A DNA stretch of 64,000 bases. It comes from Bacteroidia bacterium (GTDB lineage Bacteria; Bacteroidota; Bacteroidia; J057). This document shows, piece by piece, positions 56,329-62,366 of the stretch (the first letter of the stretch is position 1; every line of letters starts with the position of its first letter). The translations under genes were made by a program, and so were the position numbers. The stretch covers positions 248,001 to 312,000 of the forward strand of contig JAUIKF010000001.1 in NCBI GenBank assembly GCA_030430575.1, given 5' to 3'. The notes beneath the pieces are model-generated. The model was given only the letters and a program-made list of their open reading frames with translations, was not told the DNA's origin and did not search any database.

Positions 56329-56736
56329 ATGAAAACCACTAAAATCCTGTTTATCAGTGTCTTGCTCTTGGTTTTTGGGGTAAAGCTCCAAGCGCAAAAG
56401 ACCGCGAAAGTCGCAGAAGCAGATATCAAAACCTCCGCCCAATGTGGCGAATGTGTAGACCGTATCACCAAAGGGCTGACCTACGAAAAAGGCATCCTGG
56501 CAGTGAACCTCGACCTCAAGACCAATATCTTGAATGTGCGCTACAAAACGCGCAAAACCAATAAGGAAAACATCCAGAAAGCTGTAGTTGCGATGGGGTA
56601 TGATGCAGACGACATGATGGCTAATAAAGAAGCCCATGACAGCTTGCCTGGCTGCTGCCAGAAGGATGGTGAAGCTTGTGGAGATCCTGCACATAAGCAG
56701 GATGAGAACGAAGACGATGACGATGAAGACGAGTAA
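56329..56736 (+). CDS. Secreted heavy-metal-associated (HMA) domain protein
   Basis: The 135-aa product has a signal peptide (MKTTKILFISVLLLVFGVKL) and a single HMA domain with the metal-binding pair Cys39/Cys42 (SAQCGECVDRI). The C-terminal tail carries further CC and C (PGCCQKDGEACGD) and ends in an acidic run (EDDDDEDE). It would be a periplasmic copper carrier. It is in line with HYC_CC_PP and the TonB receptor, so a copper relay is plausible. The C-terminal tail is unusual for HMA domains. Confidence 0.82.
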   Translation: MKTTKILFISVLLLVFGVKLQAQKTAKVAEADIKTSAQCGECVDRITKGLTYEKGILAVNLDLKTNILNVRYKTRKTNKENIQKAVVAMGYDADDMMANKEAHDSLPGCCQKDGEACGDPAHKQDENEDDDDEDE

Positions 56737-57421: not shown

Positions 57422-59125
57422 TTACATGTTTTTATCCCTTTGGAACTTCACTTCCCCCCCCACAATGGTCATATCTACCCGAGTTTCTAGGATTTCATTG
57501 ACGGGAACCTTTATCAAGTCTTGAGAGAAAACAGTGAAGTCTGCAAATTTTCCTACCTGGATGGATCCCATCTTTGGCTCATCAAAGGCGCCAAAGGCAG
57601 CATCCAACGTGTATGACCGCAACGCTTCCATCCGGGACATCCGCTGGTCTACCTCGTAGCCTTCCTCAGCAGAGCCATCCAGTGGCCGTCGCGTCACAGA
57701 TGCATAATAGCAATTGATGGGGTTGACAGGTTCGACAGGTGCATCCGTCCCATTGATGACTTTGGCGCCTGACTGCAAAAGTTTCTGCCAGACGTAGGCA
57801 CCTTCCTTGATGCGGTCTATGCCGAGTCTATGGATCGCCCATGGGCGGTCCGATGCCATATGGATGCCTTGCATAGAGGCGATTACCCCTAATTCCGCAA
57901 AACGCCCGATGTCCTCCCTGCTCAGGTGCTGCGCATGTTCGATGCGGAAGCGATGGTCTTTGGCTTTTTCAGGCTGCGCCTCGAAGGCCTTCTGAAACTG
58001 GTCGAGGACCTCTCGGTTGGCGCGGTCGCCGATGGCGTGCACGCAGACCTGGAAGCCATAGGTGAGGGCTTGATGGCAGACTTCGCCGATATGCGCCATA
58101 GGCTGCGAGGGCTCTCCTGAAATATCAGGGGCATCCGTATAAGGTGCTAGCAGCCATGCCCCACGGGAGCCTAGCGCCCCGTCACTGTATAACTTGATAG
58201 CCCTGATTGTGAGCCAATCATCTATTTGAGGGCCTTTTTGGTACCATTTCTCCAATAACACACTGTCATGCCCTGAAAGCATTACCCATAACCTAAGGCC
58301 CAATTTCTCTTGCTCCCGATAGCTTTGGTACAACTCAATCGTCTTGGCACTTTCTCCCGCATCACAAAAACTGGTGATGCCATTTTTGAGGCATTCTTGC
58401 ATACCCAATTCGAGGATTTCCTGGCGTACTTCCAAGCTTCCCTCTGGAATATGGCGGGCGATCAGACTGGCTGCCCCTTCGTTAAAAATGCCTGTAGGCT
58501 GCCCATTTTCATCTCTAAACACCTCCCCTCTCCCATCGTAATCTGTATCCGCAGAAATACCTGCAATTTCCATCGCCTTGGCATTGGCAAAGCCCGCGTG
58601 GCCGCTGGCGTGTCGTAGGTAGACGGGATTATCAGGCGAGACAGCGCTGAGCGTCTCGTGAGACTGAAAGCCTTTCACTACCTTCTCGGGCAGTTCATCC
58701 CATTTGCTTTGATGCCAGCCCCGTCCCAAGATCCACTCCCCAGGTTTGGCTTTTTTAACTGCTTCGGCTACACGGGCTACCATTTCCCGGTAATTTTTTA
58801 TATCTGACAAATCAAGCTGGCGCTTCAACTGCCCAATGCCCATGAGGTGGGCATGACTTTCGATGAAACCTGGCGTCATGGCCTTGCCTTGCAAGTCTAT
58901 GACTTGTGTATTGGAATCGACCAATGCTTTGGCGGGTTCTTCGAAGCCCGCAAAGACAATTTTGCCGCCTTTCACTGCAACAGCCTCCACGACTGGCATC
59001 GCTTCATCCATCGTGTAAATGGTCCCCCCAAAGATGACCATGTCGGCTGTATCGGAAGTTTCTGGCGGGGTATTGCAGGCAAAAAGGAGGAGAAAAATGA
59101 GGGATAAAGTGGAGAGGTTTTTCAT
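57422..59125 (-). CDS. Lipoprotein amidohydrolase (Amidohydro_3, YtcJ-like)
   Basis: The 567-aa product is a metal-dependent hydrolase of unknown substrate, held at the membrane by a lipobox (LSLIFLLLFAC, Cys17). The metal site is visible: GFIESHAHLMG (HxH), VCVHAIGDRANREV, RIEHAQHLS and NGTDAPVEP. This is the YtcJ-like Amidohydro_3 branch. It lies alone and divergent from the sigma-factor gene. Confidence 0.9.
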   Translation of the reverse strand: MKNLSTLSLIFLLLFACNTPPETSDTADMVIFGGTIYTMDEAMPVVEAVAVKGGKIVFAGFEEPAKALVDSNTQVIDLQGKAMTPGFIESHAHLMGIGQLKRQLDLSDIKNYREMVARVAEAVKKAKPGEWILGRGWHQSKWDELPEKVVKGFQSHETLSAVSPDNPVYLRHASGHAGFANAKAMEIAGISADTDYDGRGEVFRDENGQPTGIFNEGAASLIARHIPEGSLEVRQEILELGMQECLKNGITSFCDAGESAKTIELYQSYREQEKLGLRLWVMLSGHDSVLLEKWYQKGPQIDDWLTIRAIKLYSDGALGSRGAWLLAPYTDAPDISGEPSQPMAHIGEVCHQALTYGFQVCVHAIGDRANREVLDQFQKAFEAQPEKAKDHRFRIEHAQHLSREDIGRFAELGVIASMQGIHMASDRPWAIHRLGIDRIKEGAYVWQKLLQSGAKVINGTDAPVEPVNPINCYYASVTRRPLDGSAEEGYEVDQRMSRMEALRSYTLDAAFGAFDEPKMGSIQVGKFADFTVFSQDLIKVPVNEILETRVDMTIVGGEVKFQRDKNM

Positions 59126-59275
59126 AGAGAGATTAATTTTGAATGTTGAATGAGGAATTTTGAATGAAAATCTTAAGAAAACCTCAAAATGTGGAATTAA
59201 TAATCACTCAATTTATTAATTAATAATTTTTTGTGCATTATTTACCACATTTACCTGTCTTTACACCTGAATACA

Positions 59276-59869
59276 TTGGACAAAAAGGACTTACATATCC
59301 ATCATCAACTGATCAAAGCATCCCAAAAAGGGGATAGAAATGCACAGGCCAAGTTATATAGCCTGTATGCTAAAGCGATGTTGAATACGAGTTTTCGGAT
59401 CATGAACAATGTGGAGGATGCCGAAGATGTTGTACAAGAGGCTTTTTTAAAGGCTTTTAGAAGCCTGCATACCTATCGGAAAGAAGCCAGTTTTGGGGCG
59501 TGGCTCAAGCGAATTGTGGTCAATCACGCCATCAATGCCCTTAAGAAAAAGCGGTTGGACTTCGTGCCATTAGAGAATAAACATCAAGAAACCCCATCAT
59601 CTGGTACGTTTGAGTTGGACGGGACTTATTCAGCCAAAGAAGCACTCGACGCCTTGCATCAATTGCCTACAGGCTATCGGACGGTCTTTTCTCTCTACCT
59701 CCTGGAGGGATATGACCACAATGAAATCTCTCAAATTCTGGGAGTTACCGTTTCTACCTCCATTTCTCAATACAACCGCGCCAAACAAAAATTAAGAACC
59801 ATTTTACAGGAAAAACACCGACATGGACAAGATAGAGCAGTTATACAAAAAGCATCGGGCCGCATTTGA
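59276..59869 (+). CDS. ECF-type RNA polymerase sigma factor
   Basis: The 197-aa product from a TTG at 59276 (MDKKDLHIHHQLIKASQKG) has sigma region 2 (LYSLYAKAMLNTSFRIMNNV, then DAEDVVQEAFLKAF) and region 4 (LPTGYRTVFSLYLLEGYDH, then ISQILGVTVSTSISQYNRAK). The frame is open to 59231, but the extra 15 residues lack family features. It overlaps the next gene, an anti-sigma-like thioredoxin protein, by 47 bases, so the pair is surely co-regulated. Confidence 0.92.
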   Translation: MDKKDLHIHHQLIKASQKGDRNAQAKLYSLYAKAMLNTSFRIMNNVEDAEDVVQEAFLKAFRSLHTYRKEASFGAWLKRIVVNHAINALKKKRLDFVPLENKHQETPSSGTFELDGTYSAKEALDALHQLPTGYRTVFSLYLLEGYDHNEISQILGVTVSTSISQYNRAKQKLRTILQEKHRHGQDRAVIQKASGRI

Positions 59870-60470
59870 TGTGCTGGAACCAAAGCCTGCTCTGTGGGAT
59901 CACCTAGCGCAGGATCTGGCCCAAAAACCGCCCAATACCACTTGGTGGGCAAGAAATAGCTTCCGATTGGCAGCCGTTTTGGTTGTATTATTGGGCATTG
60001 GATTTGGGACCAAATTGGTTTTGCAAAAACCGCCTATCGGACTGGACTACTATCAGATATCCCCCGACATCGAACTTCAGACGCCAGAAGGGCATGAAAT
60101 TGCCCTTTCAGACTTGGAAGGGAAAGTCGTTTTGGTGGAGTTCTGGGCATCGTGGTGCAATGTCTGCTCCCAGAAAAATTGTGAAGAGCTTTTACCCGTT
60201 TACGATACCTATAAGGAAAAGGGATTTGAGATATACGCTGTCTCTGTCGATGAAGACCAGCGCCAGTGGGTCAGCGGCATCGAAACCCATAAGCTCCCCT
60301 GGATTCACGTCTCCGATCTTAGAGGACTTTCCTCCCCTATCTCCCAGCAATTTCAAGTTGAGAAAACGCCGACGACTTATCTCCTCGATGAGAAGCGAAG
60401 AATCATCGGGAAAAACCTCAGCCGGGAAGAGCTGGAAGTGAGATTGGGTGAGTGTTATTCTGGGAATTAG
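59823..60470 (+). CDS. Anti-sigma-like / thioredoxin (TlpA-type) fusion protein
   Basis: The 215-aa product has a cytoplasmic N-terminal segment MDKIEQLYKKHRAAFDVLEP, then KPALWDHLAQDL, the form of Bacteroidota anti-sigma factors. A membrane helix follows at about 47-65, then a periplasmic TlpA/AhpC-TSA thioredoxin fold with the redox motif WCNVC (Cys112, Cys115) and a cis-Pro-like TPTTYLL segment. It overlaps the ECF sigma gene. The simplest reading is a redox-sensing or redox-active anti-sigma factor, an inference from the fusion. Confidence 0.82.
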   Translation: MDKIEQLYKKHRAAFDVLEPKPALWDHLAQDLAQKPPNTTWWARNSFRLAAVLVVLLGIGFGTKLVLQKPPIGLDYYQISPDIELQTPEGHEIALSDLEGKVVLVEFWASWCNVCSQKNCEELLPVYDTYKEKGFEIYAVSVDEDQRQWVSGIETHKLPWIHVSDLRGLSSPISQQFQVEKTPTTYLLDEKRRIIGKNLSREELEVRLGECYSGN

Positions 60471-60530: not shown

Positions 60531-62366
60531 CTACTCCAGCAAATAGCCAAACGTTTGCAATCGCTTCCGAAACTTCTGGATGTCTTTCTTGGCAATGAGG
60601 ATCAAGAACCCTTCGGCCTTCAAGCTAAGTCGTTTGAGTTCAGGGTCTCTTACGATTAACTGTAGCAGGCTGCGATTATCCTGATCCACCCTAAAAATGG
60701 CAAAGTCTTTTTCCTCCTCAAGTGGATTGACTTTCTGCTTGATTTCCTCAAAAAAGACCTCCCAATTGGCAGGAAGCTTTTCGGAAAATACAGTGGTGAA
60801 TATCTGAATCTTGTGGTCTAGATCCGCAGGGCTTTTGCAATCTCCCAAAAACAGTTTGGCGTCCGTATAAAATCGCTTATTCCCAAATGGCTTGGCAAAA
60901 CTGGCAATAGCCATAGCCGCTCGTTCTAGGTCGCCATCAGTGAGCAGAATAGAGAGGGAATCATCAGCGAGTTTTAGGGTAAAGGGGGCCTTGACCTTGG
61001 ATTCATAGGTTGATGTTTTCCCAAGAACAAAAGCTCCTAGGTCATTCAACCTGATGGCCCTGATGCCATCATAAGGAGAATCGGCAGTGATAGAGGGGAT
61101 ACTGAAGTCGGGTTCTTCATAGATGATATCAATAAGTCCCCAAGAGGCCATAAAAAACAACGTGGCGCGAAATGAAGGCCACAGTACCAATTTTTCCGTC
61201 CTATCCGGATGGATACTCACCGTATCCATAAAGCCATACTCAGAAGTCTGATCAGGCACTTCTAGGTAGAGGTCATACATGCCTGGGCGTGCAATAGGAA
61301 ACTTAAAAAAGCCCTGTCTTTTGAGAGACAACTCTATCTCTTCATATCCCATCCATTGCCCTACTGGCAATCCCTTGATCAAGTCTTTATAGATTGTTCC
61401 TTGATTGGTGATGTAATAGGTATTTAGCTTGGAAATCCCCCCCATATATCCAAACATGTGAATGGGTAAATGGAAACCTTGAAGAAATTCGTGATCAAAT
61501 AGCCTTTCGGTCAGCTCGATGAGGTTATCCGTCTTGAGCTTTTTTGATAAGGCTAATAGCCCTATTAAGGAGCTTGATCTGATGTATTGGAGGTCCGCTT
61601 GCTTGGTATCGGAATAAAATTCTTGGATTTTTAACTTTTTGCTGATACTCCTAACAGAAGCAATCGAAGGACGTCCTTTCTTGGTTAGTTTCAGCGGTTT
61701 TTGCTGTAGGCGAATGAGCAACCCTGGCAGCTCCTCCTGGATCAGTGATTCGCCTAGGAGCATTTTTTCTTCAGCTCGGTCAGGCTGTGGTTCATAAGGG
61801 GGAATAAAAAGTGGTTCAGGGAAAAGCAGAGGCAATACCAAGCCTCGGATTTCAAGCGATAGGCTATAAGAAATCTCTTCATTGGTATAGCTGTAGTACC
61901 TATTGGGATTCTTATTTTCAAAAAAACGGAGTTCGGGTGAATCGGTCAGCTTATAGTTCCCTTGCCAATCTGGTTTCCGAGATTTGACAGCACCTTCTAT
62001 CCCAAATTTGCTTTTTAATTCTTTATGATCAATAGAGCCATTGAGCGCGACATATTCGAGAATCGTTTGGGCATCTTTGGGGAGGTATTTGACAAATCGC
62101 TTGAAGCATTCAGGGTGCAAAAATGGCACAGCGTTAAAGGCAAGCGCAGCCCATTTTGCGTTTTTATTTGAATTCCCAATTTGCACTGCTTCTAGGGCAG
62201 CCTGCTTTATTCGCTCCTCCTGTTTGAAGAGCCAATTGGCTTCTCCTTTCAAAAAGGCTTTGGTATAAGGTTTGAAATGCCTGTCAAGCTCCGTTTTATT
62301 ATACGTATCTAGCCTCGAATTAACCTCCTGCCTGGTCCATCCTATATCGAGTTTTTTCTTGCTCAT
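60531..62366 (-). CDS. Uncharacterised protein paired with a SNF2 helicase
   Basis: The 611-aa product has no family I recognise. It is helical and basic at the start (TRQEVNSRLDTYNKTELDRH), has several charged hinge regions, and ends in a small alpha-beta part (RSLLQLIVRDPELKRLSLK, then FRKRLQTFGYLL). It overlaps the SNF2 gene by four bases and is transcribed after it, so the proteins probably act together, perhaps in DNA repair or remodelling. The assignment is by context only. Confidence 0.6.
   Translation of the reverse strand: MSKKKLDIGWTRQEVNSRLDTYNKTELDRHFKPYTKAFLKGEANWLFKQEERIKQAALEAVQIGNSNKNAKWAALAFNAVPFLHPECFKRFVKYLPKDAQTILEYVALNGSIDHKELKSKFGIEGAVKSRKPDWQGNYKLTDSPELRFFENKNPNRYYSYTNEEISYSLSLEIRGLVLPLLFPEPLFIPPYEPQPDRAEEKMLLGESLIQEELPGLLIRLQQKPLKLTKKGRPSIASVRSISKKLKIQEFYSDTKQADLQYIRSSSLIGLLALSKKLKTDNLIELTERLFDHEFLQGFHLPIHMFGYMGGISKLNTYYITNQGTIYKDLIKGLPVGQWMGYEEIELSLKRQGFFKFPIARPGMYDLYLEVPDQTSEYGFMDTVSIHPDRTEKLVLWPSFRATLFFMASWGLIDIIYEEPDFSIPSITADSPYDGIRAIRLNDLGAFVLGKTSTYESKVKAPFTLKLADDSLSILLTDGDLERAAMAIASFAKPFGNKRFYTDAKLFLGDCKSPADLDHKIQIFTTVFSEKLPANWEVFFEEIKQKVNPLEEEKDFAIFRVDQDNRSLLQLIVRDPELKRLSLKAEGFLILIAKKDIQKFRKRLQTFGYLLE

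Follow-up and report, generated by a model that had tools for sequence, protein, structure and literature searches.

A sigma factor gene of the ECF family overlaps a gene for a predicted anti-sigma factor joined to a ResA/TlpA-type thioredoxin domain in Bacteroidota

The 64,000-nucleotide stretch of DNA analysed here (the window) derives from a genome of 8.16 Mb, referred to as G000, and carries an ECF sigma factor gene whose end is overlapped by the start of an unusual second gene. The product of the latter consists of a short N-terminal segment, a membrane helix and a ResA/TlpA-type thioredoxin domain, in that order. This raised the question of whether the second protein could be an anti-sigma factor and, if so, what a thioredoxin domain might contribute to the control of a sigma factor.

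The sigma/fusion pair and its control region

The sigma factor gene (59276–59869, + strand) begins with a TTG codon and encodes a protein of 197 amino acids without cysteine, and the fusion gene (59823–60470, +) begins with ATG and encodes 215 amino acids. The two frames share 47 bases (59823–59869, +), from which we infer that their translation is coupled. The pair stands alone, the nearest long frames on either side (57422–59125 and 60531–62366) both being encoded on the other strand. Elsewhere in the window, a frame at 56329–56736 (+) encodes a small protein whose N-terminal half, judged by eye, is HMA-like and contains a CxxC motif, and whose tail is acidic. An alternative in-frame TTG for the sigma gene lies upstream at 59231; position 59276 was preferred because the ortholog described below begins at about the equivalent place, and because a conserved promoter-like element occupies 59230–59259.

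The same pair was found in G001 (locus L009; sigma gene 2087–2668, –; fusion gene 1495–2121, –), where the frames overlap by 35 bases, and it is thus present in both of the two genomes of the genus that were examined. Since the same pair occurs in the second genome, the arrangement is not due to chance, and the overlap of an ECF sigma gene with the fusion gene, proposed in an earlier sequence-only reading of this DNA, was confirmed. The window and L009 proteins are 59% (sigma) and 56% (fusion) identical, and the genes flanking the pair look different in the two genomes. Within the fusion, 94 of 137 aligned residues are identical over residues 76–215 and 23 of 71 over residues 1–75; the thioredoxin half is the more conserved half.

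The sigma factor matched Sigma70_r2 (8.7e-17, residues 27–93) and Sigma70_r4_2 (2.1e-12, residues 122–173) in Pfam and scored above the cut-off of the sigma70-ECF superfamily model in NCBIfam. With sigma regions 2 and 4 only and a length of about 200 amino acids, it belongs to the ECF group. When 54 sigma factors were placed in a tree, it clustered with its L009 ortholog (support 0.996), and this pair was nested in a clade of 20 sigma factors (support 0.807), all of them paired with the N-terminal module described in the next section; as the loci for the tree had been picked through that module, the clade shows nesting and is not independent proof. The ECF repertoire of G000 is very large: the ECF sigma model matched 68 times, 51 of these matches exceeding its cut-off. 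Our survey of ECF neighbours in this genome covered 30 of the 68.

The promoter-like element, TTTGTGCA-N16-CCTGTC (59230–59259, +), lies just upstream of the sigma gene. Both of its blocks and their spacing are common to the 80 bases preceding the window and L009 sigma genes, and the element ends 16 and 13 bases before the respective start codons. Any 8+6 match with a spacing of 12–20 was obtained in only 1 of 5000 shuffled pairs, and the ungapped score was reached by 2 of 2000. ECF promoters have a similar spacing and TGTC box, a resemblance which suggests that the sigma factor may autoregulate the sigma/fusion operon through this element. An exact match occurs once in each of G000 and G001, with three further one-mismatch sites in G000 and two in G001, compared to none in either genome for the backward control pattern. 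These sites lie inside long frames or have no convincing gene downstream, so no regulon can be named, and the same scan of both genomes linked no thiol-stress gene to the element as a target. When three mismatches were allowed, the window contained 10 sites where 5.6 would be expected; 4 of 100 shuffles had at least as many.

An N-terminal module common to ECF-linked proteins

The N-terminal segment of the fusion (59823–59936, +; residues ∼1–38) has two predicted helices (residues 3–15 and 22–33) and a D16/P20/W25 motif. It is followed by a single membrane helix (59958–60023, +; residues ∼46–67), also noted in the sequence-only reading, for which residues 49–67 are the best hydrophobic stretch (mean Kyte-Doolittle hydropathy 2.35); the flanking charges fix its orientation weakly. 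In the AlphaFold2 model a helix was placed at residues 39–59 with low confidence, and the N-terminal helices were also modelled with low confidence (block means of pLDDT 53–67).

Family models gave no name to this segment. Pfam matched nothing in residues 1–79, and no anti-sigma family was matched up to an E value of 1 in either Pfam or NCBIfam. This lack of a family match, together with the lack of cysteine in residues 1–111, sets the protein apart from class I anti-sigma factors (RseA/RsiW/zf-HC2 type). Of five relatives, two were matched by the NCBIfam model 'anti-sigma factor' NF052375, with values of only 0.025–0.042, which fall well short of its cut-off. Comparison of the module profile with solved chains gave nothing relevant (best 0.13); no CnrY chain was present among its nine weak PDB matches, and thus no sequence relation to class II anti-sigma factors was detected.

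A relationship was instead evident from searches of 149 genomes of relatives. The first profile was built from three rows, namely the N-termini of both fusions and of a paralog from G000 (L040), and gave matches at E ≤ 0.1 in 43 genomes. At 28 of the 30 loci fetched, an ECF gene lay directly upstream on the same strand (26 of 28 when the two fusions are set aside), with the sigma gene ending within ∼150 bases before the module match or slightly inside it; the two loci without an upstream ECF gene (L095 and L096) were weak matches over the membrane helix, with an E value of 0.007. Because this profile contained L040, the search was repeated with the two fusion N-termini only, which makes it the non-circular test of homology. 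It returned 13 non-self matches at E ≤ 1e-3, every one directly behind an ECF sigma gene, including the thirteenth (G001:C48, locus L189); at E ≤ 0.1, matches extended to 35 of the 149 genomes. The other twelve belonged to the loci fetched before, and in these the start of the module frame varies between a position slightly within the sigma frame and one about 130 bases beyond its end. In the reverse direction, when 16 relatives that have no thioredoxin domain (of 29 available, the weaker ones being dropped) were made into a profile, it matched residues 2–62 of the window protein at 1.6e-13 and L009 at 6.9e-9, compared to 0.014 for the best other reading frame; all 16 had been part of the first profile (L040) or were found by it, and that profile included the window. 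A 62-amino-acid frame near a contig end (L174, –) gave a marginal match of 0.014 to the module profile.

The module consensus is E-x-x-I-x-x-N-R-x-x-x-D-x-x-E-P-x-x-x-L-W, in which D16 is invariant and P20 and W25 are nearly so (alignment A7, 18 sequences). The window and L009 proteins both have the D-x3-P-x4-W segment followed by one membrane helix, and both are encoded directly behind an ECF sigma gene. The homology and the gene context, with 13 of 13 matches linked to ECF genes, bear out the anti-sigma-like N-terminal segment recognised in the sequence-only reading. It is well supported by these comparisons that the N-terminus of the fusion represents a Bacteroidota anti-sigma module, predicted to bind the sigma factor, and likewise that a module common in Bacteroidota appears here joined to a thioredoxin domain. 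Conservation of the pair, and the homology of the fusion's N-terminal segment to other ECF-linked proteins, led us to reject the idea that an ordinary TlpA protein simply adjoins an unrelated sigma gene.

What lies beyond the membrane helix differs greatly between proteins with this module. In the commonest relatives (for example L070, L073, L075, L085 and L189) it is an outer half of ∼120 residues that looks helical by eye. The module is combined with SprB, PKD and CHU_C domains in L072 (202–1692, –), and a PKD domain follows a weaker module match in L094. At L081 (1495–3165, +), the module and membrane helix encoded behind an ECF gene are fused to a VWA domain (vWF_A 5.5e-38, VWA 6.2e-18). 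Outer-membrane beta-barrels follow weaker module matches at L091 (above the Pfam cut-off; module match E 0.001) and L086 (below the cut-off; module match E 1.6e-4). The window's own genome encodes three further ECF-linked proteins that resemble the Dma anti-sigma factors discussed below, L061 (179–1444, –), L054 (2199–3449, +) and L045 (1964–3448, +), with a short W-containing N-terminus, a membrane helix and a C-terminal OMP_b-brl_2 barrel, which in L045 is below the cut-off (E 0.0058); the N-termini of L061 and L054 resemble the module at the level of the motif only. The same genome also contains the paralog L040 (1973–2551, +), which has the module with a different C-terminus and overlaps its sigma gene by 29 bases. 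Judged from these sequences, the outer half behind the module is exchangeable, and the window protein is its thioredoxin version.

Some further observations were made on these relatives. The CHU_C type IX secretion signal in L072, of which L078 is by eye a close homologue, is odd for an anti-sigma factor of the inner membrane. L040 and L189 (–) form a second ECF/anti-sigma pair of the module type that is present in both genomes, apparently orthologous and with a helical-looking outer domain.

The thioredoxin domain and its cysteines

The outer half of the fusion (60060–60461, +; residues 80–213) was matched in Pfam by AhpC-TSA (3.6e-17, residues 80–194), Redoxin (4.2e-15, residues 81–200) and Thioredoxin_8 (4.5e-15, residues 100–194). 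An AlphaFold2 model made with 33 TlpA relatives had block means of pLDDT of 92–98 for residues 81–210 and low values before them. Its closest solved structure was 3fw2 (Z 21.6, rmsd 1.6, 140 residues aligned), followed by 3fkf (Z 21.4, rmsd 1.6, 137 residues) and ResA, 1st9 (Z 19.9, rmsd 1.8, 133 residues), and Foldseek agreed on the structural neighbours. Membership of the TlpA/ResA family is indicated by the thioredoxin fold, the CxxC motif, the cis-proline and an acid before FW; C112, C115, the buried acid E106 and the cis-proline P183 are all retained. A thioredoxin domain with a WCNVC motif, as had been read from the sequence, is thus supported by both sequence and predicted fold, with C112 and C115 numbered correctly. 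Given the family and the preceding membrane helix, the domain is presumably periplasmic and redox-active.

In several respects this domain differs from its relatives. The active-site motif C112-N-V-C115 (60156–60167, +; CNIC in L009) takes the place of the CxPC usual in Bacteroidota TlpA relatives, which was present in 76 of 80, CNVC or CNIC occurring in none of the 80. The cis-proline P183 (60369–60371, +) was found in 33 of 33 aligned relatives, and the residue before it, T182 in the fusion, was I, V or L in all 33. These 33 sequences, used for the structure alignment, were chosen from the 80 loci, and had been baited with EFWASWC or MD[KR]IEQL[YF], so that conservation of those letters is biased. 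There are also two extra cysteines, C120 (60180–60182, +) and C211 (60453–60455, +), both kept in L009, as is T182. Because 17 of the 33 aligned rows end before the C211 column, cysteines were counted again on 80 full frames: none had a cysteine up to 12 residues after the CxxC, none had one at least 75 residues after it when read to the frame end, and only three had any cysteine after it.

The model places C120 in the helix that comes next after the active site, and C211 is part of the final helix. As these helices pack on one face in thioredoxin folds, a second disulfide, between C120 and C211, is possible. Neither the sigma factor nor residues 1–111 of the fusion contain cysteine, all four cysteines lying beyond the membrane helix, and so any thiol control exerted by the protein's own cysteines must act via the outer domain. 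The conserved active site and the four conserved cysteines are consistent with the hypothesis, also put forward in the sequence-only reading, that the protein's own disulfide could exert redox control. The genome in addition encodes related TlpA domains with 44–47% identity and one match to a DsbD-type electron carrier (1.1e-17).

Outside G000 and G001, the full-length fusion was absent from the matches listed in searches of 149 genomes of relatives and 395 genomes of the class, a result that a divergent fusion could escape. It was also absent from the best 80 of 531 relatives from named genomes, which were ordinary TlpA proteins, all from Bacteroidota by title, so that the organism of the window is presumably a Bacteroidota as well; a search of these 80 loci with the sigma profile placed an ECF gene directly upstream in none and nearby in two, both more than 1.5 kb downstream. 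Five partial matches, L190–L192 from the class search (starting at residues 31–34), and L193 (at residue 44) and L194 (at residue 29) from the search of 149 genomes, were fetched as stretches of 2.7–2.9 kb and contained no ECF or module match; these are ordinary TlpA proteins, and the L194 frame contains internal stops. As only two natural examples were found, both in one genus, the peculiarities of the active site and cysteines rest on two sequences.

Possible modes of signalling and relation to known systems

Taken together, these results are best explained by a sigma/anti-sigma pair of the ECF type that regulates its own expression and contains a thiol-redox sensor, an explanation which we regard as probable. 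On the basis of homology and gene context, residues 1–38 of the fusion would tether the sigma factor to the cytoplasmic side of the membrane, and we propose the same role for this segment in the other Bacteroidota proteins that have it. One helix is predicted to cross the membrane and would thereby place the ResA/TlpA-like domain in the periplasm, together with its complete dithiol site and its two additional conserved cysteines. Oxidation or reduction of the domain, or its linkage to a partner by a mixed disulfide, might then alter the conformation, partner binding or proteolytic stability of the anti-sigma factor and so free the sigma factor, which would then drive transcription of its own operon, at the least, from the element at 59230–59259. 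More tentatively, and with somewhat less than even confidence, we suggest that the protein may be a transmembrane redox switch contained in one polypeptide, in which a CN[VI]C ResA/TlpA-type domain and a second cysteine pair directly gate an ECF sigma factor. It could then exemplify a plan general to Bacteroidota, whereby a short anti-sigma module is set on interchangeable outer modules (helical, beta-barrel, SprB/PKD, VWA or thioredoxin), each reporting a different condition of the envelope.

The same features can be read in other ways, and they fit client sensing as well as sensing of the bulk redox state. The thioredoxin domain might respond not to the bulk redox potential but to a partner, such as an apocytochrome, a misfolded protein with cysteines or a DsbD-type reductase, bound at the active-site cysteine and groove; the sigma factor would then be set free by occupancy rather than by oxidation. 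The ResA family acts on specific substrates, and the ResA-like fold, the complete dithiol site with its cis-proline and the DsbD-type carrier encoded in the genome would all suit such a sensor, as would the possibility that CNVC and T182 tune specificity rather than potential. However, no obvious partner gene adjoins the pair in G000 or G001, and the extra C120/C211 pair would be superfluous for simple binding of a client, so we consider this reading rather unlikely, if less so than the two that follow. Single-pass anti-sigma factors of other families are commonly released by proteolysis, and the unrelated C-terminal domains of other module proteins would fit a protein in which an inert thioredoxin fold sets access for a protease through its stability, with release by regulated intramembrane proteolysis as for RseA-like factors. 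Such a fold need not have kept the CxxC, the buried acid and the cis-proline, yet all are kept, and the thioredoxin domain is the more conserved half; this explanation seems improbable. Little probability also attaches to the view that the thioredoxin domain is a working periplasmic reductase or oxidase, fused to the anti-sigma module so as to be made together with the sigma factor, without any role in signalling. Its active-site residues are intact and the related TlpA domains of the genome would have made recruitment easy, but CNVC/CNIC and C120/C211 have no counterpart in the 80 TlpA relatives, and the module elsewhere carries varied and apparently non-enzymatic C-termini. The thiol-redox sensor is the explanation that we favour over these three.

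The fusion resembles ResA, TlpA and CcmG in its fold, CxxC and cis-proline. Proteins of this family have a membrane anchor, as does the fusion, whereas the relatives examined lack the anti-sigma module, and the fusion is distinguished by CNVC/CNIC and two extra cysteines. CnrY responds to nickel and cobalt via CnrX and not through a thioredoxin domain such as the fusion carries. According to PMC7406223, CnrY, of class II, binds sigma4 and sigma2 with two helices. The fusion is similar in having a short segment with two predicted helices, of low confidence, before its membrane helix.

In RsrA the cysteines lie in the sigma-binding domain. As outlined in PMC4960319, RsrA is a zinc-binding redox anti-sigma factor that places a sigma factor under the control of thiol (disulfide) stress, which for the fusion is a hypothesis, and it acts in the cytoplasm, whereas the four cysteines of the fusion all lie beyond the membrane helix. 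The Dma anti-sigma factors of Bacteroides thetaiotaomicron (Dma1/Das1 and Dma2/Das2), as described in PMC13088901, share with the fusion an N-terminal sigma-binding domain, one membrane helix, a neighbouring ECF gene, an origin in Bacteroidota and a large module outside the inner membrane. In Dma proteins the C-terminus is a beta-barrel on a long disordered tether, in place of which the fusion has a short linker and a thioredoxin domain, and the sigma factors cognate to Dma belong to group ECF21; the distinction from Dma was made by description, the sequences compared being the Dma-like L086 and L091.

In a survey described in PMC7406223, class I anti-sigma domains were found in the vicinity of just 6% of the ECF sigma factors of Bacteroidetes, compared to 32% over all phyla. 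The module, whose outer half varies between proteins, is a candidate for some of the regulators missing from this count. Its thioredoxin version, if redox-controlled, would provide a direct link from the periplasmic thiol state to transcription. In agreement with the sequence-only reading, no anti-sigma factor with a thioredoxin or TlpA domain was found in those portions of the open-access literature that were covered. As these sources describe them, anti-sigma factors with a short segment (CnrY), with an elaborate outer part (Dma) and with cytoplasmic thiol-based control (RsrA) are already known, and the thioredoxin fusion is a new variant among these.
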